A program made the position numbers and the translations under genes. From the NCBI RefSeq assembly GCF_003664185.1, contig NZ_RCCS01000001.1:1-64000 (forward strand): a DNA stretch of 64,000 nucleotides. The letters run 5' to 3'. The notes under the pieces were generated by a model. It was not told the origin of the DNA. It did not search any database and was given only the letters and a program-made list of their open reading frames with translations. The stretch is from Tenacibaculum discolor (GTDB lineage Bacteria; Bacteroidota; Bacteroidia; Flavobacteriales; Flavobacteriaceae). Positions 23,688-45,537 of this stretch are shown here, one piece after another (position 1 is the stretch's first letter; each line of letters starts with the position of its first letter).

Positions 23688-24734
23688 TTATTCTTTTATA
23701 ACTTGCCAAACCTTTACCGTCTTATCTTTACTAGGTGTAGCTACTAATTCTCCACTAGAATTTACATCCATTCCTAAACCAATATCATCTGTATGATCAG
23801 TTATTGTTTGCAATATTTTTTCGTCATTAATATCCCAAAGTGTTGCAACTATAGGTTTAGTATAACCTGTAAATCCAAAATGATACTCTAATAATTCTCC
23901 TAGCATTTTTTTATCTGTTCCTCCAGCTAAAATTCTATTATTACCAATAAACACTACAGAATGAATAGCTTCATTTTCACCTTGTAAGGTATGCAATAGC
24001 TCCCACTTATTTGTATCCCAAATTTTAATAGTTTTATCATCTCCAGCACTTGCTAAAAATTTTCCATTTGGACTAAAATCCATTGATAAAGGGACTAAAG
24101 AATGACCTAAAATTGTTTTTGATAACCTGCCACTTTTTATATCATAAATTCTTATGGTGTTATCGCTACTTGAAGCCGCTAAATGATCTCCAGTCGGATT
24201 AAAAACTACCTCCCAAATATTATGAGAAGCTTCTTTAAATTCATTTGTAACTTTTCCTGTATTAACATTCCAAACCGTTACTTTATTATCATCACCTCCT
24301 GCTGCAATTAAATTACCATCAGGGCTAAAGCTTATCGACCAAATTGTTCCCTTATTTCCATCAAGTACTTTTAACAGCACTCCAGAATTTACATCCCAAA
24401 GTCTCACTAATCCATCATAAGCCCCAGTTGCAACAAGTTTTCCGTTTGGGTTAAAATCTACAGATGGTGACCCTATTTTATGAGGTAAATTATGTACTAC
24501 TTCCCCTGTTATTCGATTCCAAATTTTTGTATTTTGGTCTATACCGCCACTAACCATAAGTGTATCATTTGGTGCGAATTTAACTTCCCAAACATCACCA
24601 GAATGATGTTTAAATGTATTCTTTAATTCGATAAGGTTTCCTTCAAATAACTTTGGTTGTTTAAATAATTGTACATAAATAAAGTAAGTTATACTTAATA
24701 CTACTAAAAGCAATATAATCTTTCTCTTTTTCAT
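23688..24734 (-). CDS. Membrane-anchored WD40-repeat protein
   Basis: The 348-residue protein starts with a single membrane helix (IILLLVVLSITYFIYV) and continues with about seven WD40 repeats, each with recurring SPDGNLIAAGGDD, KVTVWNV or KIWDTN patterns, enough for one beta-propeller. It would face the periplasm. The ATG follows the upstream protease stop with no gap, so the two form an operon. It probably binds a partner protein; the partner cannot be named from sequence. Confidence 0.8.
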   Translation of the reverse strand: MKKRKIILLLVVLSITYFIYVQLFKQPKLFEGNLIELKNTFKHHSGDVWEVKFAPNDTLMVSGGIDQNTKIWNRITGEVVHNLPHKIGSPSVDFNPNGKLVATGAYDGLVRLWDVNSGVLLKVLDGNKGTIWSISFSPDGNLIAAGGDDNKVTVWNVNTGKVTNEFKEASHNIWEVVFNPTGDHLAASSSDNTIRIYDIKSGRLSKTILGHSLVPLSMDFSPNGKFLASAGDDKTIKIWDTNKWELLHTLQGENEAIHSVVFIGNNRILAGGTDKKMLGELLEYHFGFTGYTKPIVATLWDINDEKILQTITDHTDDIGLGMDVNSSGELVATPSKDKTVKVWQVIKE

Positions 24735-32573: not shown

Positions 32574-33038
32574 CTATTTTTTTTCTATGATAGGAACTGC
32601 ATCAAAAGGGTCAACCATTGCGATAAATAAAACACAGGGACCATTATTTAAGCATTTAGCCCTGTGCGGTTTTTTTGCAGGACCATAAGCATATGAACCC
32701 GCTTTTAATACGGTAGCTTTTTCACCTTGGTATTGTACTTCTAAATCTCCTGAAATTAAAATCATTCGTTCAGGTGATTTATGTGTGTGACTTATAACTT
32801 CTGTATTAGGTTCTATTCTAAAGAAAAAATCTAAATTAGGTTTAGATATATCGCCATGAAGTATTGTAAAAGAACAGTTAGGAAAGAAATCAGGAGCAGG
32901 AAGCCATTTCAAACTCTTATTATTAACAGTTGTAGCAATAGAAGTTTCAGTGTTTGAAACACCATTGCTTTGAGCATTTAATCCGATAGCTAAAAAAGCT
33001 AGGATAAGGGTTAACAGGTTTAGTTTGTTTGTTTTCAT
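32574..33038 (-). CDS. Secreted cupin-domain protein
   Basis: The 154-residue protein has a signal peptide (LNLLTLILAFLAIGLNAQ) and a single cupin barrel. Metal-ligand motif 1 is present in part (ISHTHKSPERMILISGDLEV) and motif 2 as YGPAKKPHRAKC, so a metal site with several histidines is likely. Exported cupins of this size are common in Bacteroidota, but their substrate is not known. It is a single gene. Confidence 0.78.
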   Translation of the reverse strand: MKTNKLNLLTLILAFLAIGLNAQSNGVSNTETSIATTVNNKSLKWLPAPDFFPNCSFTILHGDISKPNLDFFFRIEPNTEVISHTHKSPERMILISGDLEVQYQGEKATVLKAGSYAYGPAKKPHRAKCLNNGPCVLFIAMVDPFDAVPIIEKK

Positions 33039-33876
33039 TTTGTTGATTTTTAGATACTTAATATAGTTAAAATAAACAGGGTTTCAAATTATATTAACTT
33101 GTTTATTATAAGTATAATCACTTGGAATTTCTGTATTTAATTTAAGAATCAGGATAAGTATAAGGAGACAGAAAGTTACAGTTTTTTTGCTTACAATAGT
33201 ACTATCAAAAAGTTACTTAAAGAATAAAATATTGAGCTGAATGTTATGTTTTGAGTATGAATGAAGTTAATAAACTCTCATGGTTGGTATTGAGCTACTC
33301 TGAAATTAAGAAAAACTAAACATTGCGAATAGGATTAGCTTTATTTTTTACTTTATGTTGGTTAAAGTTATCATAGAAAAAAATCTTTTTTGTTGTGACG
33401 ATTTTTTTGTCTGCTGTAATCTACTACTAACTCAAAAAAGAAAAATATATTCCTAATGAAATTACAGAAACTAGAATTTTTATTAATAATGGTTTATTAA
33501 TTTTGATGCAATCCCTGTATTTTGGGTTCATGGGCGAGATGAATTAACCCTTCTATTGCTTCTAAGAGTTAAAAATGTTTTACCTAGTTCTATAAAGTTT
33601 CTTGTTATCAAACCTGAAATATTTTTAAATAAAGTGAGAGGTCAGTTATTTAATTCAATTTATAAAAGAAAAAAATTAAGTAATCTTTAATTTAAAGGAG
33701 AATAAATTCGTTGTGCTTTTTTAATAATAATGTCTATTAAATTAACCATTTTAAAGATTACATTCAAAACTAATGTGAGATAAACCTAAATTTATTTTAT
33801 AAAAGAGAAAAACTACCTTTTTGTGTAAAGTTTAATAAAAAAATACTTGTTATTTTTGTTATAAAATATTATTGCA
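33039..33876. other. Gene-poor stretch before the RiPP locus
   Basis: These 838 bases lack a complete gene. They hold one stop-free frame that looks like a gene remnant (33490-33690, listed separately), and an element TTTGTGTA at 33820-33827 that recurs upstream of two other genes in the RiPP locus. The last 30 bases before 33877 contain a weak promoter-like TTG-N20-TATTATTG ending 2 bases before the ATG. Confidence 0.5.
33490..33690 (+). pseudogene. Possible remnant of a degraded gene
   Basis: A stop-free stretch of 66 codons without a usable upstream start reads like real protein (FDAIPVFWVHGRDELTLLLL, then VLPSSIKFLVIKPEIFLNKV and a Lys/Arg-rich end). I do not recognise the family. Stops upstream close the frame. 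It may be the 3' end of a decayed gene left at the edge of the RiPP locus, or chance in AT-rich DNA. Confidence 0.3.
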
Positions 33877-34632
33877 ATGGATATGAGATATAGTAGAAAT
33901 AGAATATATGTTAAACCAGAAGAGCAAGAAATTATTAAAAATTACCCTGTTTTATTGGGAGGATCTGGAATTGGTGGTGTTATAGCAGAATGTGCTTTGC
34001 GTTTTGGGTTTGAAAATATAACTATTGTAGATGGTGATCATGTTGAAAAATCAAATTTAAATAGACAAAACTATATTGAAGAAGATATCAATACCTCTAA
34101 AGTTAATGCTATTAAAAAACGGTTATTAGCAATAAATAAAGAAGCTAATATTAATGTATATAATAGCTTTATAACGTCAGAAAATTTAAAGGAATATATT
34201 CTTGATCATAAGGTAGCCATTAATGCTTTGGATTTTACTTCTGATGTCCCTTTAATTTTTGATGAGGTTTGTCAGCAAAATAATATACCAATTTTACACC
34301 CATATAATTTAGGTTGGGGAGGTTTGGTAGCTGTAATATCTCCCAATGGTCTATCATTAAAGGCTATAGCAAAAAACGGACAAAAAATCAATGAACTTCG
34401 AGTAGTTGAATATATTTCAAACTATATGAAGTTTTGGGGAACACCACAGCTCTGGTTAGATGAAGTATTACATGAGTACTTTAACGAAAATAAAAAATTA
34501 TCTCCACCACAATTATCTATTGGCTCTTGGATGGTTGCTAGTATGTGTACTCACCTTCTTTTTAAAATAGCTACAAATAAAGGATATAAAAAATTTCCAG
34601 AATTTTATTTTTCTACTATCAACATGAATTAA
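33877..34632 (+). CDS. E1-like ThiF/MoeB-family adenylyltransferase without a catalytic cysteine motif
   Basis: The 251-residue protein has the E1 nucleotide fold: GGSGIGGVIAECALRFG (phosphate loop), TIVDGDHVEKSNLNRQ (Asp and the Arg/Gln finger), Lys in SKVNAIKKRL, and ALDFTSD. These residues bind ATP and activate a protein C-terminus as an acyl-adenylate. The zinc-binding CxxC pairs of MoeB/ThiF are absent, and the few cysteines are not in the catalytic loop position. The stop overlaps the convergent luxR-type stop (shared TTAA). In the RiPP setting it could activate the precursor's C-terminus or an acyl carrier, but this is inference from location. Confidence 0.82.
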   Translation: MDMRYSRNRIYVKPEEQEIIKNYPVLLGGSGIGGVIAECALRFGFENITIVDGDHVEKSNLNRQNYIEEDINTSKVNAIKKRLLAINKEANINVYNSFITSENLKEYILDHKVAINALDFTSDVPLIFDEVCQQNNIPILHPYNLGWGGLVAVISPNGLSLKAIAKNGQKINELRVVEYISNYMKFWGTPQLWLDEVLHEYFNENKKLSPPQLSIGSWMVASMCTHLLFKIATNKGYKKFPEFYFSTINMN

Positions 34633-35387
34633 ATTAATTTATTATTTGTAGCATACACAATGGCTTCTGAAATATTGGTAACTCCCAATTTTTCAAACAA
34701 TTTTTTTCTATGAAATTTAACAGTATCAGGAGACACACATATAGGCTCAGACATTTCATTAATTGTATAACCCCTAACGGAAAATCTTAAAATTTCCTTT
34801 TCCCGTTTAGATAGCTCAATTTTCTCTTCTGTTTTCCAATAATTACCATTTAAATCATATTTGAAAATTTTATTTTCTCCTTTTTTAGATATCTTAATAT
34901 TTCCAGAATTTTGTTCATTGGAAAGAGAGATAATACAAATAGCTTTCCAAATTTTACCTTCTTCAGTTAAAAAAATAGGAGTTAGCTTGTGATTAATTAA
35001 GAATGATTTTCCTTCTTGGTTTTTTAATTGAAAGTCATAAGAAATAGAGTGAGCGATTCTTTCTTTTAATGGAATTTTGTCATAAAAATCAAACCCAATA
35101 GTATTTATTTTAAGTAATAGTTCTACATCTTCTGAAATAACATAATTAAAGTAAAAAAGGTATCCCATTTCTTCAACTTCTTTAGGAGTGTGTCCGCATA
35201 AGAAAAGAGGATTTTCAGAAACATATTCAAATCCTTTTTTTTGATAGTCTATCACATAAATACTTTTATAGGTAGTTCTCGCAAAGGCTTTAATTACTTC
35301 TAAATAATTAGTCGTTTGCTTGTGTTCATTTTCAGATATGTTGGTCACGGTATTCCGTGATGTGAAAAAATCATCAATATTGTTCAT
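34629..35387 (-). CDS. LuxR-type (GerE helix-turn-helix) regulator with PAS-like N-terminus
   Basis: The 252-residue protein has a PAS-like sensor half (ENPLFLCGHTPKEVEEMGYL, FQLKNQEGKSFLINHKLTPIF) and a C-terminal helix-turn-helix (LSKREKEILRFSVRGYTINEM, SPDTVKFHRKKLFEKLGV). It lacks the autoinducer-binding domain of true LuxR. It is divergent from the LuxI/FeeM-like acyltransferase across a 156-base region with palindromes, and is the obvious candidate to control the RiPP locus. Ligand unknown. Confidence 0.88.
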   Translation of the reverse strand: MNNIDDFFTSRNTVTNISENEHKQTTNYLEVIKAFARTTYKSIYVIDYQKKGFEYVSENPLFLCGHTPKEVEEMGYLFYFNYVISEDVELLLKINTIGFDFYDKIPLKERIAHSISYDFQLKNQEGKSFLINHKLTPIFLTEEGKIWKAICIISLSNEQNSGNIKISKKGENKIFKYDLNGNYWKTEEKIELSKREKEILRFSVRGYTINEMSEPICVSPDTVKFHRKKLFEKLGVTNISEAIVYATNNKLI

Positions 35388-35443
35388 AGTTTCGAAGGGA
35401 CTTATATTCGAAATAAGTGAAAAAATAAATGCAATACAAATTT

Positions 35444-35492
35444 ATTTGTGTTTTTTTTAACAAAAAAAACACAAATATTCTACTAATTTGTG
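35444..35492. promoter_or_regulatory. Palindromic operator candidate in the luxR-acyltransferase divergent region
   Basis: A perfect 15-bp inverted repeat (35444-35458 with 35462-35476) has a 3-base loop. The half-site ATTTGTG recurs at 35444-35450 and 35486-35492, and as CACAAAT at 35470-35476. TTTGTGTAGTA occurs again at 36186-36196, before the receptor gene. The arrangement suggests binding sites for the LuxR-type protein. Confidence 0.45.
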
Positions 35493-35543
35493 TAGTACAT
35501 TGAAAGTTTTAACTAGATAGTTTTGGTGGTAAAACATTATACC

Positions 35544-36194
35544 ATGATACTCAACAAAAATTATGTAGAAAAATTAGCCACAAGCGAAGTGTATGACTTA
35601 TCAAAATTTGTAGTTGAAGAAAATTTTAATCACCACACAAAAAAAGATGATTTTAAAAGTAACAAAAAAGATATTTTATCTGTTTATGAGGAAGAAATTG
35701 GACATGTTAAAAACTCCAAAATTTTTGTTAGTAGAGATCATTTAGGGAAAATTATAGGGTCTATTAGGGTTTTAAAATGGAATTATATAGACAAACTACC
35801 TATGCAAAGTTTGTTTGGAATAAATCCATTACTAACTATTGAAGATAGGTCTTTTAATGATGTATGGCATATTGGTAGGTTTGCGATAAAAAAAGAGATA
35901 AATGATTCTAGTCTGTTTAAAAGACTTATGGTTTGTGCAATTTCTCCAGTATGTAGTCATATTGAAAATATTGCTTTTGCAGAATGTGATAGTAAATTAT
36001 TAAGAGTTATGTCTTTACTAGGAATAAAAGCTAAAGTAGTGGGTAAACCAATTAATTACTTGGGTTCTGAAACTATCCCTGTAAGTTTTTCATATGCTGG
36101 TCTTATTGGGTTTTATGAAGAGAATAAACATTTAGTGTCTAACCAAGAGCTTCTTGAAAAAACAACTTTTAATAAAAACTACACTTTTGTGTAG
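35544..36194 (+). CDS. LuxI/FeeM-like GNAT acyltransferase
   Basis: The 216-residue protein resembles the LuxI / N-acyl amino acid synthase (FeeM) branch of the GNAT fold: IIGSIRVLKW (position of the conserved Arg), VWHIGRFAI (Arg retained, but the usual Glu of the LuxI 'ELSRF' is His), and AECDSKLLRVMSLLGIKAKVV-type strand followed by NYLGSETIPVSF. LuxI's Trp and DxFD are not seen. So it probably links an acyl group to an amine, but the product is not likely to be an ordinary homoserine lactone. ATG 35544 is preferred over TTG 35523. It faces the LuxR-type gene. Confidence 0.72.
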   Translation: MILNKNYVEKLATSEVYDLSKFVVEENFNHHTKKDDFKSNKKDILSVYEEEIGHVKNSKIFVSRDHLGKIIGSIRVLKWNYIDKLPMQSLFGINPLLTIEDRSFNDVWHIGRFAIKKEINDSSLFKRLMVCAISPVCSHIENIAFAECDSKLLRVMSLLGIKAKVVGKPINYLGSETIPVSFSYAGLIGFYEENKHLVSNQELLEKTTFNKNYTFV

Positions 36195-36195
36195 T
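36179..36195 (+). promoter_or_regulatory. Short hairpin / TTTGTGTAGTA element
   Basis: A 7-bp inverted repeat (actacac / gtgtagt) spans the acyltransferase stop codon. Its right half carries the same 11-base TTTGTGTAGTA found in the divergent promoter. It may be a weak terminator or a regulatory site for the receptor gene downstream. Confidence 0.35.
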
Positions 36196-36245
36196 AAAAG
36201 TATAGCCATAAGAAGATAGATTTACAACATAGAAATTAAAACTAA

Positions 36246-38654
36246 ATGAATCTATCAAGAACTATTCTTATTATTCTATTTTTTTCTTATTCTTCTTATG
36301 CACAAATAGAACTTAAAGGTGTAGTGAGAAATTCTTCAAATGCCGCAATAGAGTTTGCAAATGTTGTTTTATCAAACCAAAAGAATGAAATTGTTAAAGG
36401 AACAATTACTGGTGTAAATGGAAGGTTTAGCTTATCAGTAAAAGAAGGAGAGTATAAATTATCAATTAGTTTTTTAGGATGTAAGAATTGGTTAAAAGAA
36501 ATTTCAATAGATGATAATCATGATTTTGGAATTCTAATTCTAGAAGAAAGTAAGAATAATTTAGATGAAGTTGTTGTGAATGCAAAGAAACCTGTGATTA
36601 AGAGAAAAGTAGATAGAATAGAATTTAATGTAAAGAATACAATTCTTTCAGAAGGAAATGCATGGGAGGTTTTGAATAAAACACCAGGAGTGATAGCTTC
36701 GTCATCTGGAACTTTGCAGGTTTTTGGTAAATCAGGTGTTTTAGTTATGATTGATGAACGTCCTGTACAATTATCATTAGATGAGTTAAAAAATATGCTG
36801 GAAGGGATGTCTGCTAGTGAAATTAATTTAATAGAAGTTATTACAAATCCACCTGCTAAATATGATGCAGAAGGAAACGCTATATTAAATATTTCTTTAA
36901 AAAAGAAAAAAAAGGTAGGATATAATGGAGAGTTTTTTTCAAGATATACACAAGGAATATTTCCAAAACTAAGCAATGGAGCAAACATATTTTATAGAAA
37001 TAATAAAGTTAATATTTCTGCAAATTATAGCCTAGGAAAAGGAAAAAGTAATGTAAAAGAAAATAGCGATATTAATTTTTTTAATTCAACGACTGAAACG
37101 TCTTCTTTTTGGAAAGAGAACTCCGATAGAGATACAGATTATGTCACTCATAACTTTAGAACATCGTTAGATTATCAGGTGTCTGAAAAAAGTGTATTAG
37201 GTATAAAAATAGATGGTAATCTTGTTCCCTATAGAGAAATAATTAATAAAACTAGGACAAATGTTTTAGATAATCAGAACACTTTAGAATCTTTTTTTAT
37301 TAATAATAATAACTCAGATAGAGATACTAAAAACATTTCTTATAACATAAACTATAATCAAAAACTTAAAAGAAAAGGACGTTCGTTAAGTTTTAATTTT
37401 GATCATATTGATTATGCAACAAAAGGAGGGCAAGAAGTTAGTACAGATTTTTACAAACCAGAGAATAATTTTGATAAAAACGAATATTTTACTTCTCATA
37501 ACAAGCAAAGTATTAAAATATACACTTCAAAGTTAGATTACATAGAGCCTATTGATTCTACTTCTAATTTAGAAACAGGTTTTAAATTTAATTCGATAAA
37601 AACAGATAATAATTTAATTTATTTTACTAAAAATACTCAAGGTGATTTAATATTTGATAGTACTAGAAGTAACCAATTTATATACGATGAGGATACGTAT
37701 GCAGCTTACTTTTCTTATAGTAAGGGTTTTGATAGTTTTTCTATTAAAGTAGGATTAAGAGGAGAGTATACTAAAACTATAGGTAATTCAGTAACGTTAA
37801 ATCAAATTACTAATAATAATTACTTTGAGTTATTCCCTTCAGCTTTTTTGCAATATAAACTAAAAAATAAAAGTTCATTAGGATTATCTTATAGTAGAAG
37901 AATTAAAAGACCTAAGTTTAAATTATTAAACCCTTTTCAATTTTTTATTAGCCCATACAGTTTTATAGAAGGAAGCCCTTTTTTACAACCTTCTTTTTCT
38001 GATAATATAGATGTAACTTATAGTTTAAAGAATAAATACTTTTTAACAGGTTATTTTAGTTATACAAAAAGTCCTTTTACTCAACTATCGATTCAAGACA
38101 ATGAAACACGTGTTTTTAAATACAAAGCAGAGAATTTAAATAGTAATGTAGCTTTTGGAGTGGTATTTAATACTTCGTTTAATGTTTATAGTTTTTGGAG
38201 AATGTATTTTGATTTGAACTTATATAATGAAATTTATGAGTTTATAGGTGTAGATGGTAATCAATTAATAAGAAATCAAAGAGTAAATATAGATTCTTAT
38301 TTATGGAATGAGTTTCAAATTTCTAAAGAACATAATTTATCACTAGAACTTACAACTAGATATTTTTCACCAAAAGTTCAAGGAGGGTTTAATATTAAAA
38401 TGATGGGGGAAGTGTCAATAGGAGTGAAAAAGAAGTTTTTTAAAAACAAAGCGACTATGTCAATATATATAGCTGATATTTTTGATACGAATAAATACAC
38501 CTTAGAATCTAAATATGCTATGCAAAACCACATTTTTAGAGAAAATCCAGAGAATCAATATGTCAGGTTTTCTTTGTCTTACAGGTTTGGGAATTCTAAG
38601 AATAAAAGGAAAAGAAAAAGAGAACGTAAATCCGAAGAGAAAAAAAGATTATAA
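36246..38654 (+). CDS. Outer-membrane beta-barrel receptor (TonB-dependent receptor-like, PF14905 type)
   Basis: The 802-residue protein has a signal peptide (ILIILFFSYSSYAQ), an N-terminal carboxypeptidase-regulatory-like domain (ELKGVVRNSSNAAIEFANVVL, VNGRFSLSVKEGEYKL), a plug domain (NTPGVI-like KTPGVIASSSGTLQVFGKSG, then INLIEVITNPPAKYDAEGNA), and a long barrel ending FSLSYRFGN. It is co-oriented with the RiPP genes and ends 89 bases before the precursor. It might import or release the peptide or its target ligand, or act as self-receptor. The C-terminal tail after the last strand is unusually basic (KRKRKRERKSEEKKRL). Confidence 0.85.
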   Translation: MNLSRTILIILFFSYSSYAQIELKGVVRNSSNAAIEFANVVLSNQKNEIVKGTITGVNGRFSLSVKEGEYKLSISFLGCKNWLKEISIDDNHDFGILILEESKNNLDEVVVNAKKPVIKRKVDRIEFNVKNTILSEGNAWEVLNKTPGVIASSSGTLQVFGKSGVLVMIDERPVQLSLDELKNMLEGMSASEINLIEVITNPPAKYDAEGNAILNISLKKKKKVGYNGEFFSRYTQGIFPKLSNGANIFYRNNKVNISANYSLGKGKSNVKENSDINFFNSTTETSSFWKENSDRDTDYVTHNFRTSLDYQVSEKSVLGIKIDGNLVPYREIINKTRTNVLDNQNTLESFFINNNNSDRDTKNISYNINYNQKLKRKGRSLSFNFDHIDYATKGGQEVSTDFYKPENNFDKNEYFTSHNKQSIKIYTSKLDYIEPIDSTSNLETGFKFNSIKTDNNLIYFTKNTQGDLIFDSTRSNQFIYDEDTYAAYFSYSKGFDSFSIKVGLRGEYTKTIGNSVTLNQITNNNYFELFPSAFLQYKLKNKSSLGLSYSRRIKRPKFKLLNPFQFFISPYSFIEGSPFLQPSFSDNIDVTYSLKNKYFLTGYFSYTKSPFTQLSIQDNETRVFKYKAENLNSNVAFGVVFNTSFNVYSFWRMYFDLNLYNEIYEFIGVDGNQLIRNQRVNIDSYLWNEFQISKEHNLSLELTTRYFSPKVQGGFNIKMMGEVSIGVKKKFFKNKATMSIYIADIFDTNKYTLESKYAMQNHIFRENPENQYVRFSLSYRFGNSKNKRKRKRERKSEEKKRL

Positions 38655-38743
38655 AAGTTATTTATCGATAAATGATATCCAAATAGCCTATTATGATGTA
38701 AAACTAACTAGGGGAAAATTAATTAACAAAACAATTTAAAATT

Positions 38744-38929
38744 ATGAAAATCAAATTTTCACAAAAGGATCGCGAAGCATTAGCAAAATCAATGACTTCA
38801 TTCGAAAATGAAAAATTAGTAGATGCTTTAGACGTAGTTGGAGCAGGTCAAACAGATGATACAGCATGGTCTAGATCATCATGGTCAAGAAGTTCAGCTG
38901 AGCTTGAGCCTGCAGTACTAACTAAATAA
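38744..38929 (+). CDS. RiPP precursor peptide with WSRSS repeats
   Basis: The frame encodes 61 residues. Residues 1-35 look like a leader (charged, helical: SFENEKLVDALDVVGAG), ending in Gly33-Ala34-Gly35 with Val32, Leu29/Val31 and Asp30 placed like a double-glycine leader for a C39 peptidase. The core (27 or 26 residues from 35 or 36) holds a perfect tandem pentapeptide, WSRSSWSRSS (residues 42-51), giving two Trp-Ser-Arg triads, followed by AELEPAVLTK. The next genes are a radical SAM maturase, an HExxH protein and a C39 transporter. No close precursor family was recognised. Confidence 0.82.
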   Translation: MKIKFSQKDREALAKSMTSFENEKLVDALDVVGAGQTDDTAWSRSSWSRSSAELEPAVLTK

Positions 38930-38943
38930 GATTTATCTAAAAA

Positions 38944-38974
38944 ATATTGGGGTGGTTTTTAATCGCCCCAATAT
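38944..38974 (+). terminator. Hairpin between precursor and radical SAM genes (attenuator or RNA-processing site)
   Basis: The 9-bp stem atattgggg / ccccaatat extends by wobble pairs to about 14 bp with a 3-T loop, placed 14 bases after the precursor stop and before the maturase ATG. It can give far more precursor than enzyme by partial termination or by shielding the 3' end of the precursor message. It also rules out GTG 38952, inside the stem, as the maturase start. Confidence 0.6.
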
Positions 38975-38990
38975 AATTAAACTGGAAAAC

Positions 38991-40184
38991 ATGGAATTAA
39001 TAGAAGCAACTTTAAAATGTAGGTATGCTATTTTAAAAATAGCCAGTAGATGTAATTTGAATTGTAGCTATTGTTATGTATATAACAAAGGAGATAAATC
39101 ATACTTATTACAGCCTAAGAAAATGTCAACAGAAACTATTGATGCTTTTATCAGTAAAACTAAAGAACATTGTACATTGCATAAAAGCAAAGCGTTTACT
39201 TTTATCTTTCATGGTGGAGAGCCTTTGTTGGCAGGGAAAGAGTTTTTTGAATACTTTGTTGAAAAAGTGGTTGTTAATTTCAGAGATATAGATACGGAAG
39301 CAAGATTCACTATCCAAACAAACGGAGTGCTATTAAATGAAGAATGGTGTGAATTGTTTAATAGGTTAAGAATAAGAATAGGTATTAGTATTGATGGTCC
39401 AAAAAATTATAACGATATAAATAGAGTAGACCATTCTAATAGAGGTTCATTTGACAACATAATAAAGGGAATTAATGTGGTAAAAAATTACGGAAAAATT
39501 CCACTTGGAATTTTATCTGTAGTAAATATAGAAATTCCTCCTCAAGAAATGTATAGCTTTTTAAAGGAGTTAGATGTTGCATGGATGAACTTTCTTTTAC
39601 CTGATGGGAATTATGATAACCCACCAGAGGGTTTAGGCTTAAATTACAGTGAAACTATATACGCAGATTGGCTTATTAGTTTATTTGACATGTGGTTTGA
39701 AGATAATAGTAATCGTCTAGATATAGGAATGTTTAGAAGTCTTATTTACTTGGTTCTTGGTGTTGAAGTAGCAGCAGATGAGTTTGGTACTAGAACAACT
39801 GATGCATTAGTAATTGAAACTAATGGAGATATTGAATCTTTAGATGTTTTAAAAATATGTGGAGATGGCTTTACTAAGGGAGACGCAAATGTGAAAAATA
39901 CATCTTTTGATGAAGCTTTAAATACACCTTTGGCAAGGTCTTATCATTTGAGTCATAAGATACTATCTGAAAAATGTCAAGATTGTGTAGTAAAAGATAT
40001 TTGTGGAGGAGGTAATTTACCGCATCGATTCTCCAGTGAAAATAAATTTGATAACCCTAGTGTGTATTGTGCTAATTTATACAAATTAATTATACATATT
40101 CAAAATAAAATAATATCTAAACTACCTGAAAGTTTTGTCAAAGAATCAGGAATAAAAGAATTAGAGTATAATAAAATAAAATAA
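38991..40184 (+). CDS. FxsB-type radical SAM/SPASM peptide maturase (cyclophane synthase-like)
   Basis: The 397-residue enzyme has the radical SAM cluster motif CNLNCSYC (Cys21, 25, 28), the SAM-binding HGGEPLL, and a C-terminal SPASM-type set (Cys290, 329, 332, 338, 360) with the signature CGGGNLPHRFS ... NKFDNPSVYCANL. That signature fits the FxsB / three-residue-cyclophane family, which links an aromatic residue to the second next residue. With a precursor bearing two Trp-Ser-Arg triads, Trp-to-Arg C-C cross-links are predicted. ATG 38991 was preferred over GTG 38952, which lies in the hairpin. The HExxH gene follows 2 bases after the stop. Confidence 0.88.
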   Translation: MELIEATLKCRYAILKIASRCNLNCSYCYVYNKGDKSYLLQPKKMSTETIDAFISKTKEHCTLHKSKAFTFIFHGGEPLLAGKEFFEYFVEKVVVNFRDIDTEARFTIQTNGVLLNEEWCELFNRLRIRIGISIDGPKNYNDINRVDHSNRGSFDNIIKGINVVKNYGKIPLGILSVVNIEIPPQEMYSFLKELDVAWMNFLLPDGNYDNPPEGLGLNYSETIYADWLISLFDMWFEDNSNRLDIGMFRSLIYLVLGVEVAADEFGTRTTDALVIETNGDIESLDVLKICGDGFTKGDANVKNTSFDEALNTPLARSYHLSHKILSEKCQDCVVKDICGGGNLPHRFSSENKFDNPSVYCANLYKLIIHIQNKIISKLPESFVKESGIKELEYNKIK

Positions 40185-40186
40185 TT

Positions 40187-41290
40187 ATGTTACTAAAAGA
40201 ACAAAGCGTTAATGAAAATATTGATATAAGATTGGCTGAAAAAGCTCTAATGTTTTATACAGAAGAAGCTCAGGAGCTTAATGATTTAATAAAAAATAAT
40301 TTTTATAAATTGGTAGAGGTTGAATTTATAAAACTGATAGATAACTATCCAGATGTAAAAAAATACTTTAATGAGTTGTCAAATGCAGAACAAAAGAGCT
40401 TAATAAAGGCACCAGAAGTTTTGAGTATGTTATTTGTGCCTGATGAAACTTTATCCAATATTAATATAAATTATTTTTTATTAAGATTAATTGAAACGGA
40501 GAGAGCAAAAAAGACAGGAGCATTTGATGTTGAAAAATTTGGAGAAAGTCTTTGGTCGGCTGACGGTTCCTTTATGATTTCGTATGATAATGATACGAGA
40601 AGCTTCTCTACTTTTGAGCATCCTACTTTATCAAACACTACAATACCACAAGATTTTTTTAGTCATTTTAACTTAATAAACTCTAAAGATAAGGATCATT
40701 ATAGCTCTGAAGGGTTAGAACCTAAATTGTATTCTTTTGAAGAAGCTGATCTTGTAGCAAATAAAATGAATAGGGTTTTTGATAAGCTAGATGAATGTTT
40801 TAAAAATTTTATTCATACCTATACAAATGTTTTGATGCTGAAAAAAACTCGCAACGAAAAGCTATTCACTTCTGGTACAGATTCAAGACATATTAATAGG
40901 GTGATAATAACAAATGCGCATACAGTAGAAGACGAGGTTATAGCTGATGCTATGGTACACGAGGCTATTCATGGTACATTAACTATTATAGATATATTTA
41001 ATGAATGGCAACCTAGTAGAAAAGTATCTAAAGCATTTGGGAGAAAAATTTATTCTCCATGGACTAATAATTTATTAACAATAAGAAATTTAGTTCAAGC
41101 TATATATGTTTGGTATGGATTATATAATTTTTGGAAGACAAAACCAATAAACCTTAGTAAAAAATACGCTGAAGAAAGGGTTACTTTTATAGAAAATGGA
41201 TTTAATAAATTAGATATTAATCCATATAAGAATATTATAAATTCAACTACCTTTAGAGAATTAACTTTAATTAAAAATAAATTTATATAA
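40187..41290 (+). CDS. HExxH peptide-modifying protein (aKG-HExxH peptide beta-hydroxylase-like)
   Basis: The 367-residue protein has His258-Glu259-Ala-Ile-His262 (VHEAIHGTL), and downstream SPWTNNLLTIRNLVQAIYVWYGLYNFW, a C-terminal pattern of the HExxH proteins found with FxsB-type radical SAM enzymes. In known fused forms this domain uses iron and 2-oxoglutarate to hydroxylate the peptide at a beta carbon. Here it is a separate protein encoded 2 bases after the radical SAM gene. The helical N-terminal half is not recognised. Its target would be a core residue (Asp, Trp, Ser or Arg); the site is not known. Confidence 0.75.
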   Translation: MLLKEQSVNENIDIRLAEKALMFYTEEAQELNDLIKNNFYKLVEVEFIKLIDNYPDVKKYFNELSNAEQKSLIKAPEVLSMLFVPDETLSNININYFLLRLIETERAKKTGAFDVEKFGESLWSADGSFMISYDNDTRSFSTFEHPTLSNTTIPQDFFSHFNLINSKDKDHYSSEGLEPKLYSFEEADLVANKMNRVFDKLDECFKNFIHTYTNVLMLKKTRNEKLFTSGTDSRHINRVIITNAHTVEDEVIADAMVHEAIHGTLTIIDIFNEWQPSRKVSKAFGRKIYSPWTNNLLTIRNLVQAIYVWYGLYNFWKTKPINLSKKYAEERVTFIENGFNKLDINPYKNIINSTTFRELTLIKNKFI

Positions 41291-41305
41291 TAAGAAAAAT
41301 AATTA

Positions 41306-43519
41306 ATGATTGTAAATAAGTTTCCTTTTTTTTATCAAATATCAAGTCGAGATTGTGGGCCTACTTGTCTAAGAATAATAAGTAAATATTATGGAAAAAA
41401 ACTGATTTTTAGTGACTTAGATAAGGAAAGTCTTTCTTACAATGGAATGTCTATAAATGTATTAAATGATTTAGCATCTAAGCTTAATTACAAATCTTTG
41501 ATAATAAAAACAGACTTTGAATCAATTGAAAATAAAGCTCCTTTACCTTTTGTAGCGCATTGGAATCAGAATCATTATATAGTTGTATATAAATTCACAA
41601 AAAAATATGTGTATGTAGCTGATCCTTCTTTTGGGAAAACTAAATACACTAAGGCAGAGTTTTTAAGAGGTTGGTTATCTGAAAAAAAAGTAGAAGATAA
41701 GAAAAAAGGAATAGCTCTTTTATTAGAGCCTAATGAGGGTTTCTTTAAGGAAACTGGAATTAAACAGGTTTCAGAAAAAAAATTTAACGCTTTCCATTTT
41801 TTAAAGAAATATTTTTTATTCTATAAATATCATGTAGGACAACTATTATTAGGTTTTTTTCTAGGAAGTTTGTTACAATTTATTTTTCCTTTTATAACAA
41901 AATCTATCATTGATTTTGGAATAAAAAATAACAATATAAGTTTTTTAATATTTGTTTTAGGATTCCAGATTCTTTTGTTTGTATTAAATGTTGGAATTGA
42001 GTTTTTAAGAGCTCATATACTTATACACGTTAGTAGTAGGATTAACATTTTCATTATATCGGATTTTTTTGTAAAAATAATGAAGTTGCCTATTAGTTTT
42101 TTTACATATAAAATAACAGGAGATTTAAATCAAAGAATTAGGGATCATGAAAGAGTAGAGCGATTTATATCTACTTCATTATTAAAAAGTGTATTTTCAT
42201 TTTTTAGTTTAGCGGTTTTTAGTGCTGTATTGTTTGTTTTTAGTAAAATAATATTTATGATTTTTCTAATTGGAATTACAATAGAGTTAAGTTGGATATT
42301 TTATTTTCTAAAAAAAGTAAGAATATTAGATCAAAAAAGTTTTTCATTAAATTCAGAAGATCAAAATAAGGTATTTGAACTTATAACTGGAATTCAGGAT
42401 ATAAAGCTAAACAATATAGAAGATAAAAAAAGATGGGAATGGGAGAGAATACAGTTAAATAGATTTGATGTATCTTTAAAAAAGTTAAAATTAAAACAAG
42501 TCCAAGAAGGAGGACAACGTTTTTTTAGCTATCTACAGATTATTCTAATCACTTTTTTCTCAGCATATTTAACTATTAAAGGAGAGTTAACTTTAGGGTC
42601 TATGATGGCGATTCTTTTTATTATTGGTCAAATGAATGCCCCTATAAGTCAGTTAATTAATTTTATTCTTCAAGGTCAATTAGCTAAGTTAAGTATTGAT
42701 AGGCTTATAGAAATTCATGAAAAAGAAGATGAAAAACAAACTTTTGAAGATACTTTAAAAGAGACTGGAGTTCAAGATATAAAAATAGACAAATTAAAAT
42801 TTTCTTATTCTGGAAGAATTAAAGAGTCAGTTATAAATAATGTAAGTTTAGTAATTCCTAAAGAAAAAATTACAGCTATTGTTGGGGTTAGTGGTAGTGG
42901 AAAAACTACTTTACTAAAGCTATTATTAAAATTTTACGACCCAACTTATGGAGAAATTTTAGTTAATAATACAAATTTAGGAAGTATTAACAGTAGCTAT
43001 TGGAGAAATAAGTGTGGAGCAGTACTTCAAGATAGTTTTATCTTTTCTGATAGTATTGCAAATAATATAGCTTTAAATGAACCAGATTACCAGTCCACTG
43101 ACCATAAAAAACTTGTTGAGGCTTGTAAAATAGCAAACATTCATGACTTCATAGATCAATTACCTTTAAAATATGGGACTAAGATAGGGCAATATGGAAT
43201 AGGTTTAAGTCAAGGACAGAAACAAAGGTTATTGATTGCAAGAGCAGTATATAAGAATCCTGATTACTTGTTTTTTGATGAGGCTACAAACTCTTTGGAT
43301 GCAGAAAATGAAAAAGTAATTATTAATAATTTAGAAAAAGTTTATAAAGGAAAAACAGTTGTTATAGTAGCACATAGATTAAGTACCGTGAAAAATGCAG
43401 ATCAAATAATTGTTATGAATAATGGACAGATAAGCGAAATAGGTACACATGAAGAACTTGTTATAAATAAAGAAAGATATTACAGTTTAATAAAAAATCA
43501 ATTAGAACTTGGAGTATAA
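41306..43519 (+). CDS. Peptidase-containing (C39) ABC exporter
   Basis: The 737-residue protein has an N-terminal C39 peptidase with catalytic Cys17 (RDCGPTCL), His90 and Asp106, about six membrane helices (residues 170-450), and an ATPase with Walker A GVSGSGKTT (about residue 527), ABC signature LSQGQKQR and Walker B FFDEATNSLD. Such transporters cut the leader after Gly-Gly/Gly-Ala and export the core peptide. The intact catalytic triad fits the GAG leader end of the precursor three genes upstream. It should sit in the inner membrane. Confidence 0.93.
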   Translation: MIVNKFPFFYQISSRDCGPTCLRIISKYYGKKLIFSDLDKESLSYNGMSINVLNDLASKLNYKSLIIKTDFESIENKAPLPFVAHWNQNHYIVVYKFTKKYVYVADPSFGKTKYTKAEFLRGWLSEKKVEDKKKGIALLLEPNEGFFKETGIKQVSEKKFNAFHFLKKYFLFYKYHVGQLLLGFFLGSLLQFIFPFITKSIIDFGIKNNNISFLIFVLGFQILLFVLNVGIEFLRAHILIHVSSRINIFIISDFFVKIMKLPISFFTYKITGDLNQRIRDHERVERFISTSLLKSVFSFFSLAVFSAVLFVFSKIIFMIFLIGITIELSWIFYFLKKVRILDQKSFSLNSEDQNKVFELITGIQDIKLNNIEDKKRWEWERIQLNRFDVSLKKLKLKQVQEGGQRFFSYLQIILITFFSAYLTIKGELTLGSMMAILFIIGQMNAPISQLINFILQGQLAKLSIDRLIEIHEKEDEKQTFEDTLKETGVQDIKIDKLKFSYSGRIKESVINNVSLVIPKEKITAIVGVSGSGKTTLLKLLLKFYDPTYGEILVNNTNLGSINSSYWRNKCGAVLQDSFIFSDSIANNIALNEPDYQSTDHKKLVEACKIANIHDFIDQLPLKYGTKIGQYGIGLSQGQKQRLLIARAVYKNPDYLFFDEATNSLDAENEKVIINNLEKVYKGKTVVIVAHRLSTVKNADQIIVMNNGQISEIGTHEELVINKERYYSLIKNQLELGV

Positions 43520-43937
43520 CAATTTGACAAAAAATAAAGCCCCTGAAACAGCTGCTGTTTTAGAATCAATTCCTAGTTGGATTTTGCGTTGGGGGATTTT
43601 AATTATGGCTATAATTGTAGCTATAGTAATTATTTTAAGTATAAAATTAATTCATTTTCAATATAAACTTAGCACTAATGTTCATGTTGAGTCAGGCTCT
43701 TTATTCCTTAGTAAAACTCTAAATGACGAAATTAATATTAACGAAGTTGAATACATACTTATAGGAGATTCAAAACCTATTAGAATAAGTGACTTGAATA
43801 TTGTCTCTAACCAAAAAAATATAGTCATCAAAATTCCTTCTTATTATTCGGGTACGTTTAATGTAAAAGACACTCTTAAAATTGAAGTATTCCAAAAAAA
43901 AAGCCTATTAGAAATAATTGTGGGTGATATAAATTAA
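43509..43937 (+). CDS. Minimal HlyD-like secretion protein
   Basis: The 142-residue protein has an N-terminal cytosolic part with ESIPSWILRWGI, the pattern of Bacteroidota bacteriocin-export HlyD proteins, one membrane helix (about residues 30-50) and a periplasmic beta-rich domain of about 90 residues. The coiled-coil and lipoyl-like parts of full HlyD proteins are missing, so it cannot span the periplasm alone. The start is TTG 43509 (overlapping the exporter by 11 bases) or TTG 43524; there is no ATG. It is the last gene of the RiPP unit. Confidence 0.65.
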   Translation: MEYNNLTKNKAPETAAVLESIPSWILRWGILIMAIIVAIVIILSIKLIHFQYKLSTNVHVESGSLFLSKTLNDEININEVEYILIGDSKPIRISDLNIVSNQKNIVIKIPSYYSGTFNVKDTLKIEVFQKKSLLEIIVGDIN

Positions 43938-44258
43938 TCACTAATCTCACCTTAATAAGTATGCTAATAACGCACACTTAAATGGCATAATTCGCTAAAA
44001 AATATTATTAGGTTGTTCTTGAAAAAAAAGTTAATAAGTTGTTTTGTTAGTTAATTATGTGGTGTTTTCAATATGCTAGGAACGGATTTTGTTTTTGATT
44101 GATATATTTCTTTTAGAAGTTATAACTTTTCTACTTGGAATTTATTTACAGAAGTATTTTTACTTCTTTTAGGAAGTAGTTAAAGAAATAAAAATAGAAA
44201 CAAACAAAAATGTAGAAGTATAATCATTAGCTAGTTTCGCTAAGAATTAAGTTGTTAG
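43938..44258. other. Intergenic region after the RiPP locus
   Basis: I see no gene or RNA in these 321 bases. A short hairpin-like stretch (gaagtatttttacttc) lies near 44.15 kb, but without a T-run that would make a clear terminator. Confidence 0.5.
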
Positions 44259-44714
44259 TTACTCTTTTGGCATTGGAATTTTATTTCTGAAATCAAAAGC
44301 TACTTCTGAAGCACCGTTTTTTTGTAGATAATCTAATTTATCAACAGCTTCTTGTATAGTAGGGTATTCACCTTCAGGTATCCACCACATTGCAGTGTAT
44401 ACTTTTCCGTAGGAATGAAACCATTCTTTTCTTCTTTTCAAGAAATCTGTATGAAAAGTCTTGTACACAAAATCCCCCAAAGTCTCAATAGATTCCCAAA
44501 CAGAAACATTAATAATTACCTGTTCGTCATTATAAGGATTAAAACTTGTAGCATCATTATTCTCGTCTTTTAGTCTCCAAACAAAACCCTCACTGTTTTC
44601 AGCCAAATTGTTTACACGGTCTAAATTATCTACAAACTCTTTCATAATAGGATCTTCAATATTTACTCCTTTCATTCGAGCTACATTGATTTCAGCGAGA
44701 TGGTACTTTTTCAT
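44259..44714 (-). CDS. DUF3291 domain protein
   Basis: The 151-residue protein matches the DUF3291 pattern: KYHLAEINVARMKG, FVDNLDRVNNLAENSEGFVWRLKDE, and VWESIETLGDFVYKTFHTDFLKRRKEWF. It is related in fold to dimeric alpha/beta-barrel monooxygenase-like proteins, so it may bind a small hydrophobic compound. No function is established. It lies alone on the minus strand next to a cassette-like repeat. Confidence 0.82.
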   Translation of the reverse strand: MKKYHLAEINVARMKGVNIEDPIMKEFVDNLDRVNNLAENSEGFVWRLKDENNDATSFNPYNDEQVIINVSVWESIETLGDFVYKTFHTDFLKRRKEWFHSYGKVYTAMWWIPEGEYPTIQEAVDKLDYLQKNGASEVAFDFRNKIPMPKE

Positions 44715-44750
44715 AGGTGTGTTTTTTTATGTTGTTAACGTATTTGTATA

Positions 44751-44774
44751 AGGATTTTCCGTAGGAAAATCAAA
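44751..44774. repeat. Palindromic repeat, copy 1 (cassette boundary)
   Basis: 24 bases with the inverted repeat gattttcc-gta-ggaaaatc are identical to 45649-45672. The two copies lie on either side of the gene at 44854-45537. Confidence 0.8.
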
Positions 44775-44853
44775 GTGACCAAATTCGCACTAACTTTGGA
44801 TTTTGTATTAAACTACGCATTATTTTTATATGGTGTTAAGTGCAGTATTTTTT

Positions 44854-45537
44854 CTACCACAATTTCCAAAATGACTTTTTCCTTTTTAATTCAGTTTCTA
44901 CACTAACAGGTTTGTTATACTTTTCCATTATTTCAAAAACTCTACTATAATTGTAGTCTATGTTGTCAACTGTCTTTTTCCAATCTATTTCAGAAATTTC
45001 AATCCTAGTATCTAATGAACCATTCCATTTTACGTTAAATCCGTTCTTTCGTAAAACCTCCATTATCTTGTCGGCAACTTCTTTTGCTAGACCATCTTCC
45101 CGATTATGGCTGTCAAATGCAATAAATAACATTTTTTGTTCTCCAATTGCTCTTTCTAAATCTTGAGTATGGTAGAAGCAATAACCTTTAGCATTAATAC
45201 CAATTTCTTTCAGTTCCGCAATAATTTCAGAACAGTCATCTTCACCGTCGCTTTTCGTGTAACCTGCTTTGTGAAGAGAAACAATTTTATTTTTATTAAG
45301 TTCGTCAAAGGATTTTACTAATCTGTCAAAATCAGTTGGCTTTTCCCATTTTAGACTATCAGCTTTATGTTTTTTTAATCGACTATCGATTTCTTGTTTT
45401 AACCATTCTTCATCGAAGTTACTTTCATCGTAAAACATTTCACTTATGCTTTCAAGTAAATTATCTCCGTTTTCAAACCCAAAAAGTACATCCTTTTCTA
45501 GTTGTTCTATTGCTTCGTCTTTAATTTCTTGTTTCAT
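44854..45537 (-). CDS. DUF6891-like hypothetical protein
   Basis: The 227-residue acidic, Lys-rich protein begins with a helical region and contains SDGEDDCSEIIAELKEIGINAKGYCFYHTQDLERA, a pattern that resembles DUF6891 proteins. No catalytic motif, signal peptide or membrane helix is seen. It lies between two copies of a palindromic repeat that probably mark a mobile cassette. The function is unknown. Confidence 0.6.
   Translation of the reverse strand: MKQEIKDEAIEQLEKDVLFGFENGDNLLESISEMFYDESNFDEEWLKQEIDSRLKKHKADSLKWEKPTDFDRLVKSFDELNKNKIVSLHKAGYTKSDGEDDCSEIIAELKEIGINAKGYCFYHTQDLERAIGEQKMLFIAFDSHNREDGLAKEVADKIMEVLRKNGFNVKWNGSLDTRIEISEIDWKKTVDNIDYNYSRVFEIMEKYNKPVSVETELKRKKSFWKLW

Follow-up and report, generated by a model that had tools for sequence, protein, structure and literature searches.

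On contig NZ_RCCS01000001.1 of Tenacibaculum discolor, a LuxI-like enzyme lies beside genes for an exported and probably cross-linked peptide (RiPP), and the question that this locus raises is what such an enzyme does there. The stretch of DNA analysed, referred to here as the window, is 64,000 nt long (positions 1-64,000 of the contig, forward strand). A sequence-only reading had begun the cassette at 35544, the start of the acyltransferase gene, and had counted that enzyme among the RiPP genes. All of the ORFs named in that reading were found at or close to the places given for them. The start of the cassette, however, had to be moved, as a ThiF gene and a LuxR-type gene upstream had been overlooked; because these two genes share their order in 3 of 3 related RiPP loci, the cassette is taken to start near 33813. 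An Rfam scan of 33000-45000 returned no match. We consider it probable that the locus comprises two modules, with a signalling head controlling a triceptide-like RiPP cargo.

The RiPP operon and its predicted chemistry

The cargo genes are all on the plus strand. The first encodes an outer-membrane beta-barrel protein with an N-terminal carboxypeptidase-regulatory-like domain (36246..38654), an assignment that agrees with its matches to OMP_b-brl_3 (334.2 bits) and CarbopepD_reg_2. The 61-residue precursor was confirmed at 38744..38929 with its two Trp-Ser-Arg triads, at residues 42 and 47; it matched no Pfam or NCBIfam model, and its leader would end around GAG. Next are a radical SAM/SPASM peptide maturase (38952..40184, with an alternative start at ATG 38991 suggested by locus L001), an HExxH protein (40187..41290), a C39 peptidase-ABC exporter (41306..43519) and a partner protein of 142 aa (43509..43937). 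The exporter matched Peptidase_C39 at 95.4 bits and retains C17, H90 and D106, which we take to be the C39 catalytic triad, in keeping with the intact triad described earlier. The partner protein had been called HlyD-like, but its sequence gave no match in Pfam or NCBIfam. The window and the three related loci all keep a protein of 140-143 aa at this position, next to the exporter gene.

Of 12 loci compared, 3 have the RiPP operon with its gene order unchanged, and in one of these the enzymes are duplicated, with two precursors, two radical SAM genes and two HExxH genes. Synteny with three further genomes extends over nine genes of the window, counting the precursor, far more than chance would give. 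The neighbourhood check did not find the precursor to be absent or uncorrelated with the enzyme; precursor and enzymes occur together in the window and in 3 of 3 related loci. The RiPP operon is real, with genes for the outer-membrane protein, the precursor, a radical SAM enzyme of cyclophane type, the HExxH protein, the exporter and the small partner.

Two [Trp/His]-x-Arg triads are kept in 5 of 5 precursors from the window and the three related loci, and one of the five has a third triad, HLR. The radical SAM protein has a single CxxxCxxC motif (C34/C38/C41) and more cysteines toward the C-terminus. Its best NCBIfam models were YhhB (379.4 bits, cut-off 445) and FxsB (340.2 bits, cut-off 370), and the proteins of L018 and both copies of L019 were likewise under these cut-offs. 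The best PDB match was the radical SAM domain of ChlB (9GM3, E 2.1e-71). The enzyme had been described as FxsB-type; it does appear to be cyclophane-type and YhhB/FxsB-like, but YhhB is the nearest named maturase, and neither cut-off was reached. Characterised relatives act on motifs of this kind; in the excerpt of PMC11002830, YhhB links Arg to Tyr or His, and in XncB the partners are Trp and either Arg or Asn. Different neighbours surround the remaining 9 radical SAM loci compared (L020-L028, the second copy in the T. discolor genome included).

A separate HExxH enzyme gene was confirmed, with the motif HEAIH at residue 258 and with H258, E259 and H262 unchanged across all five sequences compared. 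The protein scored 24.3 bits against TIGR04267, "aKG-HExxH-type peptide beta-hydroxylase" (cut-off 40), one of the L019 copies scored 28.9 bits and the other had no match; it is likely an aKG-HExxH peptide hydroxylase. AlphaFold models from two-sequence alignments (window and L001) were unusable for both this protein (pLDDT 39.3) and the acyltransferase (pLDDT 38.6). Beyond the T. discolor genome, the HExxH profile found no member among 397 family genomes, few of them of the genus, with up to 5 candidates scored per genome.

From the computed gene sets, synteny and triads we infer the chemistry and the function of the product. The radical SAM enzyme would close a three-residue cyclophane at every Trp-x-Arg or His-x-Arg triad, hydroxylation of the peptide would fall to the HExxH enzyme, and the C39 exporter would cut off the leader and export the product with the small partner. 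The outer-membrane protein could have a role in export, uptake or self-recognition. It is rather unlikely, though the most credible of the alternatives that we weighed, that the HExxH enzyme acts by peptide cleavage or backbone oxidation, or that the radical SAM enzyme forms another bond. Both enzymes score under the cut-offs of the named families, the HExxH profile had no significant match to ChlH in the PDB (E 1.1), and the excerpt of PMC12636437 credits the HEXXH enzymes PflC and PosC with oxidative cleavage of the peptide backbone besides hydroxylation. However, the triads are conserved, and the best structural match of the radical SAM enzyme belongs to the ChlB/ChlH system, which according to the same excerpt combines a cyclophane with HExxH beta-hydroxylation. 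The cargo reads best as three-residue cyclophane chemistry, and it appears to be a new variant of triceptide.

The probable signalling head

The head consists of a ThiF/E1-like adenylating enzyme, the predicted signal cyclase (33877..34632, plus strand; Pfam ThiF 109 bits), a LuxR-type regulator with a GerE HTH (34629..35387, minus strand), the 3' end of which overlaps ThiF by 4 bp, and the LuxI/FeeM-like N-acyltransferase, the predicted signal synthase (35544..36194, plus strand). For the latter, ATG 35544 is the preferred start because TTG 35523 falls within the predicted -7 box. Matches of the acyltransferase were weak. FeeM matched 11 of 17 family members, with 14.9 bits for the window's own protein (cut-off 27); LasI was the sole PDB match (E 0.2); and Pfam Autoind_synth matched 1 of the 17 (E 0.01), which was not that of the window. 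The Pfam LuxI family had no match in the T. discolor genome, and control genomes gave none either. PAS_3 matched weakly in 3 of 15 members of the regulator family, the window's own not among them, and a PAS-like N-terminal domain is suggested by these relatives.

A ThiF-type cyclase beside the acyltransferase and the LuxR-type regulator, in the one order of ThiF (plus), LuxR (minus) and acyltransferase (plus), is intact in 36 of 43 loci (the window and 35 others). The remaining 7 heads are broken or deviate in order, and the ThiF ORF of L101 has just 194 aa. ThiF was present in 6/6 acyltransferase-positive genomes tested and in 0/4 LuxR-only genomes tested. Several head loci were without recognisable product genes.

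A ThiF-type cyclase adjoining a LuxI/FeeM-like N-acyltransferase and a LuxR-type regulator is reportedly the composition of the N-acyl-cyclolysine (ACL) system. In the ACL study, an acylation step reportedly precedes ring closure that depends on ATP, the system has a transcription factor of its own, and operons for secreted molecules lie close by. The head is very likely an ACL system, a judgment drawn from a review citation; if it is, the switch would already be known. The acyltransferase would then N-acylate an amino acid, which in an ACL system would be lysine, and ThiF would activate the carboxylate with ATP and close the ring to give N-acyl-cyclolysine. ThiF has a homologue in PDB 9EGB/9EGC (410.7 bits); our literature search on 9EGB/C/D found no paper, and our guess is that 9EGB/9EGC come from the ACL work. 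ACL signalling in Bacteroidota is attributed to Linares-Otoya et al. (2025, Nature 646:423) in the excerpt of review PMC13419125, where the system is described as widely distributed across Bacteroidota, including in gut and oral samples.

It is improbable that the product of the head is an N-acyl oxazolone, like those of OxzA/OxzB and TyzA/TyzB, and not N-acyl-cyclolysine. An N-acyltransferase and a ThiF cyclase do yield oxazolones in other phyla (excerpts of PMC10404671 and PMC12856293), and the likeness of oxazolones to signalling molecules is remarked upon in one or other of these excerpts. However, no flavin-dependent oxidase was noted beside the head genes in the gene listings, which were read without a profile search, and the Bacteroidota signal family named in the excerpt of PMC13419125 is N-acyl-cyclolysine.

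It is more doubtful still that the acyltransferase, together with ThiF, tailors the RiPP by acylation or cyclisation to give a lipopeptide. Its gene lies directly upstream of the RiPP operon on the same strand, and FeeM-like enzymes acylate some RiPPs. However, among 146 genomes of the genus, the acyltransferase (E up to 1e-30) was found in 26 and the HExxH enzyme (E up to 1e-5) in 4. The genes after the head vary, and in the examples scanned the same acyltransferase precedes lanthipeptide, grasp-with-spasm, NRPS, PKS and NHLP-exporter genes, among others. Identity to the window was 52% for the acyltransferase and 90% for the radical SAM enzyme in L018, compared to 86% and 51-53% in L019, so that the head and the maturation enzymes appear to diverge from the window independently. 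Exporter identity breaks this split (82% in L018, 81% in L019), and the small partner tracks the head. The earlier placement of the LuxI-like enzyme within the RiPP chemistry is not supported by this distribution. Together with ThiF and LuxR, it forms a signalling-type head and is most likely part of a switch.

The putative palindromic operator and -7 box

In front of each of ThiF, the acyltransferase and the RiPP operon stands the palindrome CTACACnnnnGTGTAG, its centre exactly 34 bp from that of a -7 box, and all three predicted promoters are on the plus strand. The ThiF promoter (33813..33858) has the operator CTACCTTTTTGTGTAA at 33813-33828, with 3 mismatches, and the -7 box TATTTTTG at 33851-33858. 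The acyltransferase promoter (35480..35525) has CTACTAATTTGTGTAG at 35480-35495, with 2 mismatches, and TAGTTTTG at 35518-35525. In the RiPP-operon promoter (36179..36224), the perfect palindrome CTACACTTTTGTGTAG at 36179-36194 overlaps the acyltransferase stop codon, and the -7-like box TAGATTTA at 36217-36224 is one base off consensus. One operator copy of the window thus falls within the last codons of the synthase. Across the whole window and both strands, the combined element occurred 4 times, as the three promoters and one weak match.

The operator (up to 2 mismatches of 12) was found in 36 of 38 LuxR-acyltransferase gaps, the very gaps from which its consensus was derived (shuffles: mean 0.12, maximum 2). 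A -7 box (up to 1 mismatch) was exactly 34 bp away in 28 of these 36 sites, and 8 were without one. At the acyltransferase 3' end, the operator was found in 24/38 loci, 23 of the 24 with a box at 34 bp. These counts cover 38 of the 43 loci and leave out L105, which has a broken head, and L059, L060, L114 and L115, which lack the usual type of gap between LuxR and acyltransferase. Before ThiF, the operator (up to 3 mismatches) and a box at 34 bp were present in 28 of 41 loci, counted without a shuffle control, and at up to 2 mismatches in only 17 of 41; L057 and L105 are not counted, as the stretch contains no ThiF in either. The loci come from related species, and locus counts are not independent. 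The sole independent set comprises six loci with a divergent LuxR-acyltransferase pair, L135 being left out as it had no acyltransferase ORF match. In all six the element lies either in that gap or at the 3' end of the acyltransferase gene, with no further copy on the same strand of the sequence fetched (no shuffle control). Before the synthase, the operator is often present as two sites 37-39 bp apart.

The exact long operator was found in 14 of 146 genus genomes, and its reversed-pattern control in 0. It occurred in 13/26 genomes with the acyltransferase, each time at the acyltransferase locus, compared to 1/120 without. A relaxed search of five LuxR-only genomes gave two sites in G523, one in G544 and none in G048, G520 and G529; single relaxed sites are weak because the reversed control matched twice in G529. 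In G523, which has the receptor and neither synthase nor cyclase, an orphan element precedes an unrelated gene.

A mere intrinsic terminator at the acyltransferase stop codon was rejected as extremely improbable, since the terminator scan flags the palindrome on the minus strand, and the same palindrome recurs upstream of the acyltransferase and ThiF, 34 bp from a -7 box in most loci.

From the computed operator and spacing we infer binding of the operator by the regulator. The LuxR-type protein would sense N-acyl-cyclolysine and activate three promoters with a common operator and -7 box, namely that of the acyltransferase, which would create positive feedback, that of ThiF and that of the cargo downstream. 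A broader proposal, which we regard as evenly balanced between right and wrong, is that the palindrome with a -7 box at 34 bp is one portable promoter code placed before synthase, cyclase and any cargo, that receptor-only genomes are eavesdroppers, and that the RiPP here is a triceptide under density control. In the titles and abstract starts retrieved from the literature, neither the RiPP locus nor the promoter element was named. The promoter code may or may not already be in the ACL paper.

Implications and comparison with known systems

If this reading is true, the LuxI-like enzyme beside a RiPP operon is explained as a switch and not a tailoring enzyme, and addition of the signal could turn the peptide on. 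The promoter element would provide a DNA signature for signal-controlled operons in Flavobacteriaceae, with regulons readable from sequence, and the triceptides would gain an Arg-based member that has two cyclophanes and whose hydroxylase is a separate protein. AHL production is recorded for Tenacibaculum maritimum in the excerpt of PMC4304359, citing Romero 2010. If a cyclolysine-type signal occurs in the genus, AHL reports from Tenacibaculum merit a re-check.

Compared to the LuxI synthases of AHL systems, the window's acyltransferase lacks the support of a Pfam Autoind_synth match. The likeness to the ACL system lies in the phylum and, as that system is reported, in acylation, cyclisation, a transcription factor and neighbouring operons for secreted products. 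In contrast to the wide spread of ACL in the phylum, however, matches to the acyltransferase profile were nearly confined to one order (of 395 phylum genomes 12 matched, 11 of the same order and 1 as a weak partial match in the same class). OxzA/OxzB and TyzA/TyzB share the N-acyltransferase and ThiF cyclase; the head here differs in its LuxR-type gene and putatively regulated cargo, with no adjacent flavin-dependent oxidase noted. The triceptide systems (YhhB, XyeB/XncB, FxsB) resemble the cargo in the radical SAM/SPASM profile match and the aromatic-x-Arg triads, although the enzyme here is under the curated cut-offs of all three models (YhhB, XyeB, FxsB), and the locus here unites a core of two triads with an HExxH enzyme encoded separately, a C39 exporter and a signalling head. 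ChlB/ChlH likewise combines an HExxH enzyme with a radical SAM enzyme that forms a cyclophane. However, ChlB/ChlH is a fused radical SAM-aKG-HExxH system, whereas the two enzymes here are encoded by separate genes and the HExxH sequence match is weak.

The RiPP operon and its precursors

Every open reading frame that the sequence-only reading had named for this locus was found in the window, and family scans agreed for most of them. ORF calls placed the LuxI-like acyltransferase at 35544-36194, the outer-membrane protein at 36246-38654 (also recognised by family scan), the 61-aa RiPP precursor at 38744-38929, the radical SAM enzyme at 38952-40184, the HExxH protein at 40187-41290, the C39-ABC exporter at 41306-43519 (family scan; it carries C17, H90 and D106), and a 142-aa protein at 43509-43937. 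The radical SAM enzyme had been called FxsB-type; FxsB was indeed among its best family models (340.2 bits, cut-off 370), but YhhB scored higher (379.4 bits, cut-off 445) and both were below cut-off. The HExxH protein was a weak match to TIGR04267 (24.3 bits, cut-off 40). The label "HlyD-like" for the 142-aa protein was not borne out, as family scans of the window proteins gave it no family-model match.

Of 97 genomes searched for the radical SAM enzyme, 10 gave a match, our own counted (E up to 1e-40), and the neighbourhoods of 12 radical SAM loci were compared. The complete RiPP gene set, radical SAM enzyme and precursor included, recurred in 3 of the 12: L001 (Tenacibaculum caenipelagi), L018 and L019, the last with 2 precursors, 2 radical SAM genes, 2 HExxH genes and one additional 190-aa gene. 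At the remaining 9 loci the neighbours differed, as did the small upstream ORFs where seen. An HExxH profile matched 4 of 146 genus genomes, one of which (G507) is by coordinates the L001 genome, and our own genome was the sole match among 397 family-drawn genomes. The RiPP locus picked out by the sequence-only reading is real and uncommon.

Two triads were present in each of the 5 precursors. The window, L001 and L018 have WSR/WSR, and the two precursors of L019 have HSR/WDR and HSR/WER, the latter with an additional HLR close to its end. In PMC11002830, the residues that YhhB links to Arg (at the beta-carbon) are Tyr or His, and XncB links Trp to either Arg or Asn; because of these specificities, the triads appear to fit a YhhB-like enzyme. 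Judged by sequence, the predicted peptide would be a novel triceptide variant.

A second YhhB/FxsB-like radical SAM group was also seen at L021, L022, L024, L026-L028 and L025, the last on contig C1 of our own genome (at about 453.8-455.3 kb; 328.4 bits to YhhB, under cut-off). Neighbourhoods vary among its loci, the precursor-like ORFs have 73-78 aa and a common motif, Y[YI]PT...C....[VI]WS..L..C, and the group is possibly another uncharacterised RiPP family.

A probable signalling head and its varied cargo

The locus boundary first drawn had cut off two genes directly upstream of the acyltransferase: a ThiF gene (33877-34632, + strand) and, tail to tail with it in a 4-bp overlap, a LuxR-type gene (34629-35387, - strand). 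Both were kept in all three related RiPP loci. Acyltransferase profiles matched 13 of 397 genomes in the family sample (E up to 1e-10), 26 of 146 in the genus sample (E up to 1e-30) and 12 of 395 in the phylum sample (E up to 1e-10), our own counted in each. We assembled 43 head loci (window, L001, L018, L019, L048-L060, L090-L115), comprising all 13 non-window places of the family search and, of the 32 genus-search places, the 26 not yet included. The order ThiF(+), LuxR(-), acyltransferase(+) was found in 36 of 43. L057 lacked ThiF in the analysed stretch, yet had one just outside; L105 had none in its stretch and a broken head; L059, L060, L114 and L115 had other arrangements; and L112 kept the order with ThiF and acyltransferase fragmented. 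The fragmented heads at L105 and L112 suggest decay of the switch. Transposase-like ORFs (N-terminal reading) lay near both; the L105 head precedes grasp-with-spasm cargo, and that of L112 precedes C39/outer-membrane cargo.

Head and enzymes differ INDEPENDENTLY in protein identity to the window. For L018, ThiF, LuxR and acyltransferase were 63, 69 and 52% identical, and radical SAM and HExxH 90 and 73%; for L019, the head was 80, 85 and 86% identical, radical SAM 51-53% and HExxH 33-37%. The exporter did not follow this split (82% in L018, 81% in L019); the small partner went with the head (37% and 65%). Because these patterns differ, the acyltransferase does not track the RiPP chemistry, to which the sequence-only reading had misassigned it.

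The head is a module separate from its cargo. Cargo was typed by family models at chosen loci (partly so at L049, L051, L052, L053, L056, L093, L097, L104 and L112) and at the rest by reading N-termini only. The models identified grasp-with-spasm maturases (L055, L105), a lantibiotic dehydratase with LanC-like proteins (L106), an NHLP exporter pair (L050), an NRPS with a carbamoyltransferase (L048), a PKS (L090), an NRPS with a phosphopantetheinyl transferase (L096) and a different radical SAM maturase type (L095, L110). At several loci no secreted product was recognisable downstream, and the L054 stretch stops soon after the head.

A NusG-like gene, perhaps a dedicated antiterminator, lies between the head and its cargo (NRPS, PKS or related genes) at L048 (Pfam NusG) and at L090, L096, L098, L102 and L104 (N-terminal reading). 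Proteins of ~430 aa starting WWxxF(I/L) adjoin C39 exporters at L052, L097 and L112; they matched no model (Pfam and NCBIfam for L052 and one of L112's, NCBIfam only for L097) and are candidate RiPP enzymes of a new kind.

A predicted promoter element at head and cargo

A perfect copy of the palindrome CTACACnnnnGTGTAG overlaps the acyltransferase stop codon (36179-36194). In the window alone it was not significant (2 matches at <=2 mismatches; 28 of 100 shuffles gave at least 2). Across LuxR-acyltransferase gaps, from which the consensus itself was derived, a site with <=2 mismatches in 12 was present in 36 of 38 (shuffles: mean 0.12, maximum 2), and 20 of 38 had one at <=1 mismatch. The Bacteroidota -7 box has the consensus TAnnTTTG. 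Such a box (<=1 mismatch) lay exactly 34 bp away, centre to centre, at 28 of the 36 gap sites; the same held for 23 of the 24 sites found where the acyltransferase gene ends (3' end). When the flanks of gap sites were shuffled, the commonest spacing averaged 2.4 matches, at most 5. The element was also found 5' of ThiF in 28 of 41 loci at <=3 mismatches and 17 of 41 at <=2 (raw counts). The species compared are related to one another, so neither these counts nor those below represent independent events.

Both strands of the whole window together held 4 elements. Three of them precede ThiF (33813), the acyltransferase (35480) and the RiPP operon (36179), respectively; the fourth is a weak match at 24550. 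Seven further loci not used in defining the element served as a test set; one, with no acyltransferase match, was left out. The 6 scanned, with a divergent LuxR-acyltransferase pair and 2 of them from outside the family, all had the element either in that gap or at the 3' end of the acyltransferase gene, with no further copy on that strand. Provided that it is not yet in print, the proposed promoter code is the lead of greatest use among the new ones. Paired operators 38-39 bp apart, both 5' of the acyltransferase and at its 3' end, were seen at L049, L091, L092, L093, L100 and L103; this hints at cooperative binding.

Of 146 genus genomes, 14 had a single copy of the exact long operator form. 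Thirteen of these belong to the 26 acyltransferase-positive genomes, with the copy always at the acyltransferase locus, and one (G523) to the 120 without acyltransferase. In G523 the element precedes an unrelated gene for a 421-aa protein and the LuxR gene lies elsewhere (places noted: G523:C13:26510, position 8511 of L125, and G523:C8:117311), and searches for acyltransferase and ThiF matched neither; G523 is a possible eavesdropper. Five of 31 genomes, including one that is 59% complete, had LuxR without acyltransferase, and ThiF was found in 0 of 4 LuxR-only genomes tested versus 6 of 6 acyltransferase-positive ones. A relaxed operator search of the four LuxR-only genomes besides G523 gave one imperfect site (G544), and its reversed control gave 2 matches in G529. 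Since relaxed sites were sparse and the reversed control matched in G529, these data only suggest eavesdropping by LuxR-only genomes.

Proposed mechanism and comparison with known systems

The gene content and its synteny, the precursor triads and the operator with its spacing are observations; around them a mechanism can be proposed. The acyltransferase and ThiF would make a signal, with which LuxR would bind the palindromes, raising synthase and cyclase in positive feedback and switching the RiPP operon on. The radical SAM enzyme would then close two cyclophanes, and C39 would cut near GAG and export the peptide. The HExxH enzyme may hydroxylate the peptide, for which ChlB/ChlH are precedent and PflC/PosC exceptions in PMC12636437.

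FeeM was matched by 11 of 17 acyltransferase family members (best E 2.4e-5), the window's own falling below cut-off, and LasI was the acyltransferase's sole PDB match (E 0.2). ThiF matched the solved structures 9EGB/9EGC (410.7 bits), followed by profile by the tRNA dehydratase TcdA. All 15 LuxR family members examined had a GerE HTH, and 3 of the 15 had PAS_3. The system of Linares-Otoya and colleagues reportedly acylates lysine and closes the ring in an ATP-dependent step; it is said to have its own dedicated transcription factor, to be autoinducing and to control co-localised operons for diverse secreted molecules.

In other systems, an N-acyltransferase and ThiF give N-acyl oxazolones (PMC10404671, PMC12856293). 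N-acyl-cyclolysines in Bacteroidota are credited to Linares-Otoya et al. 2025 (Nature 646:423) in a 2026 review (PMC13419125), which describes the system as widespread among samples from gut and mouth. Against equating the head with that system counts the spread of our acyltransferase profile: of its 12 genomes in the phylum sample, 11 belong to one order and the remaining one gave a weak partial match. We nevertheless consider it likely, from a match by description and not by sequence, that the head is the N-acyl-cyclolysine system of that 2025 report, and the switch is very probably already known.
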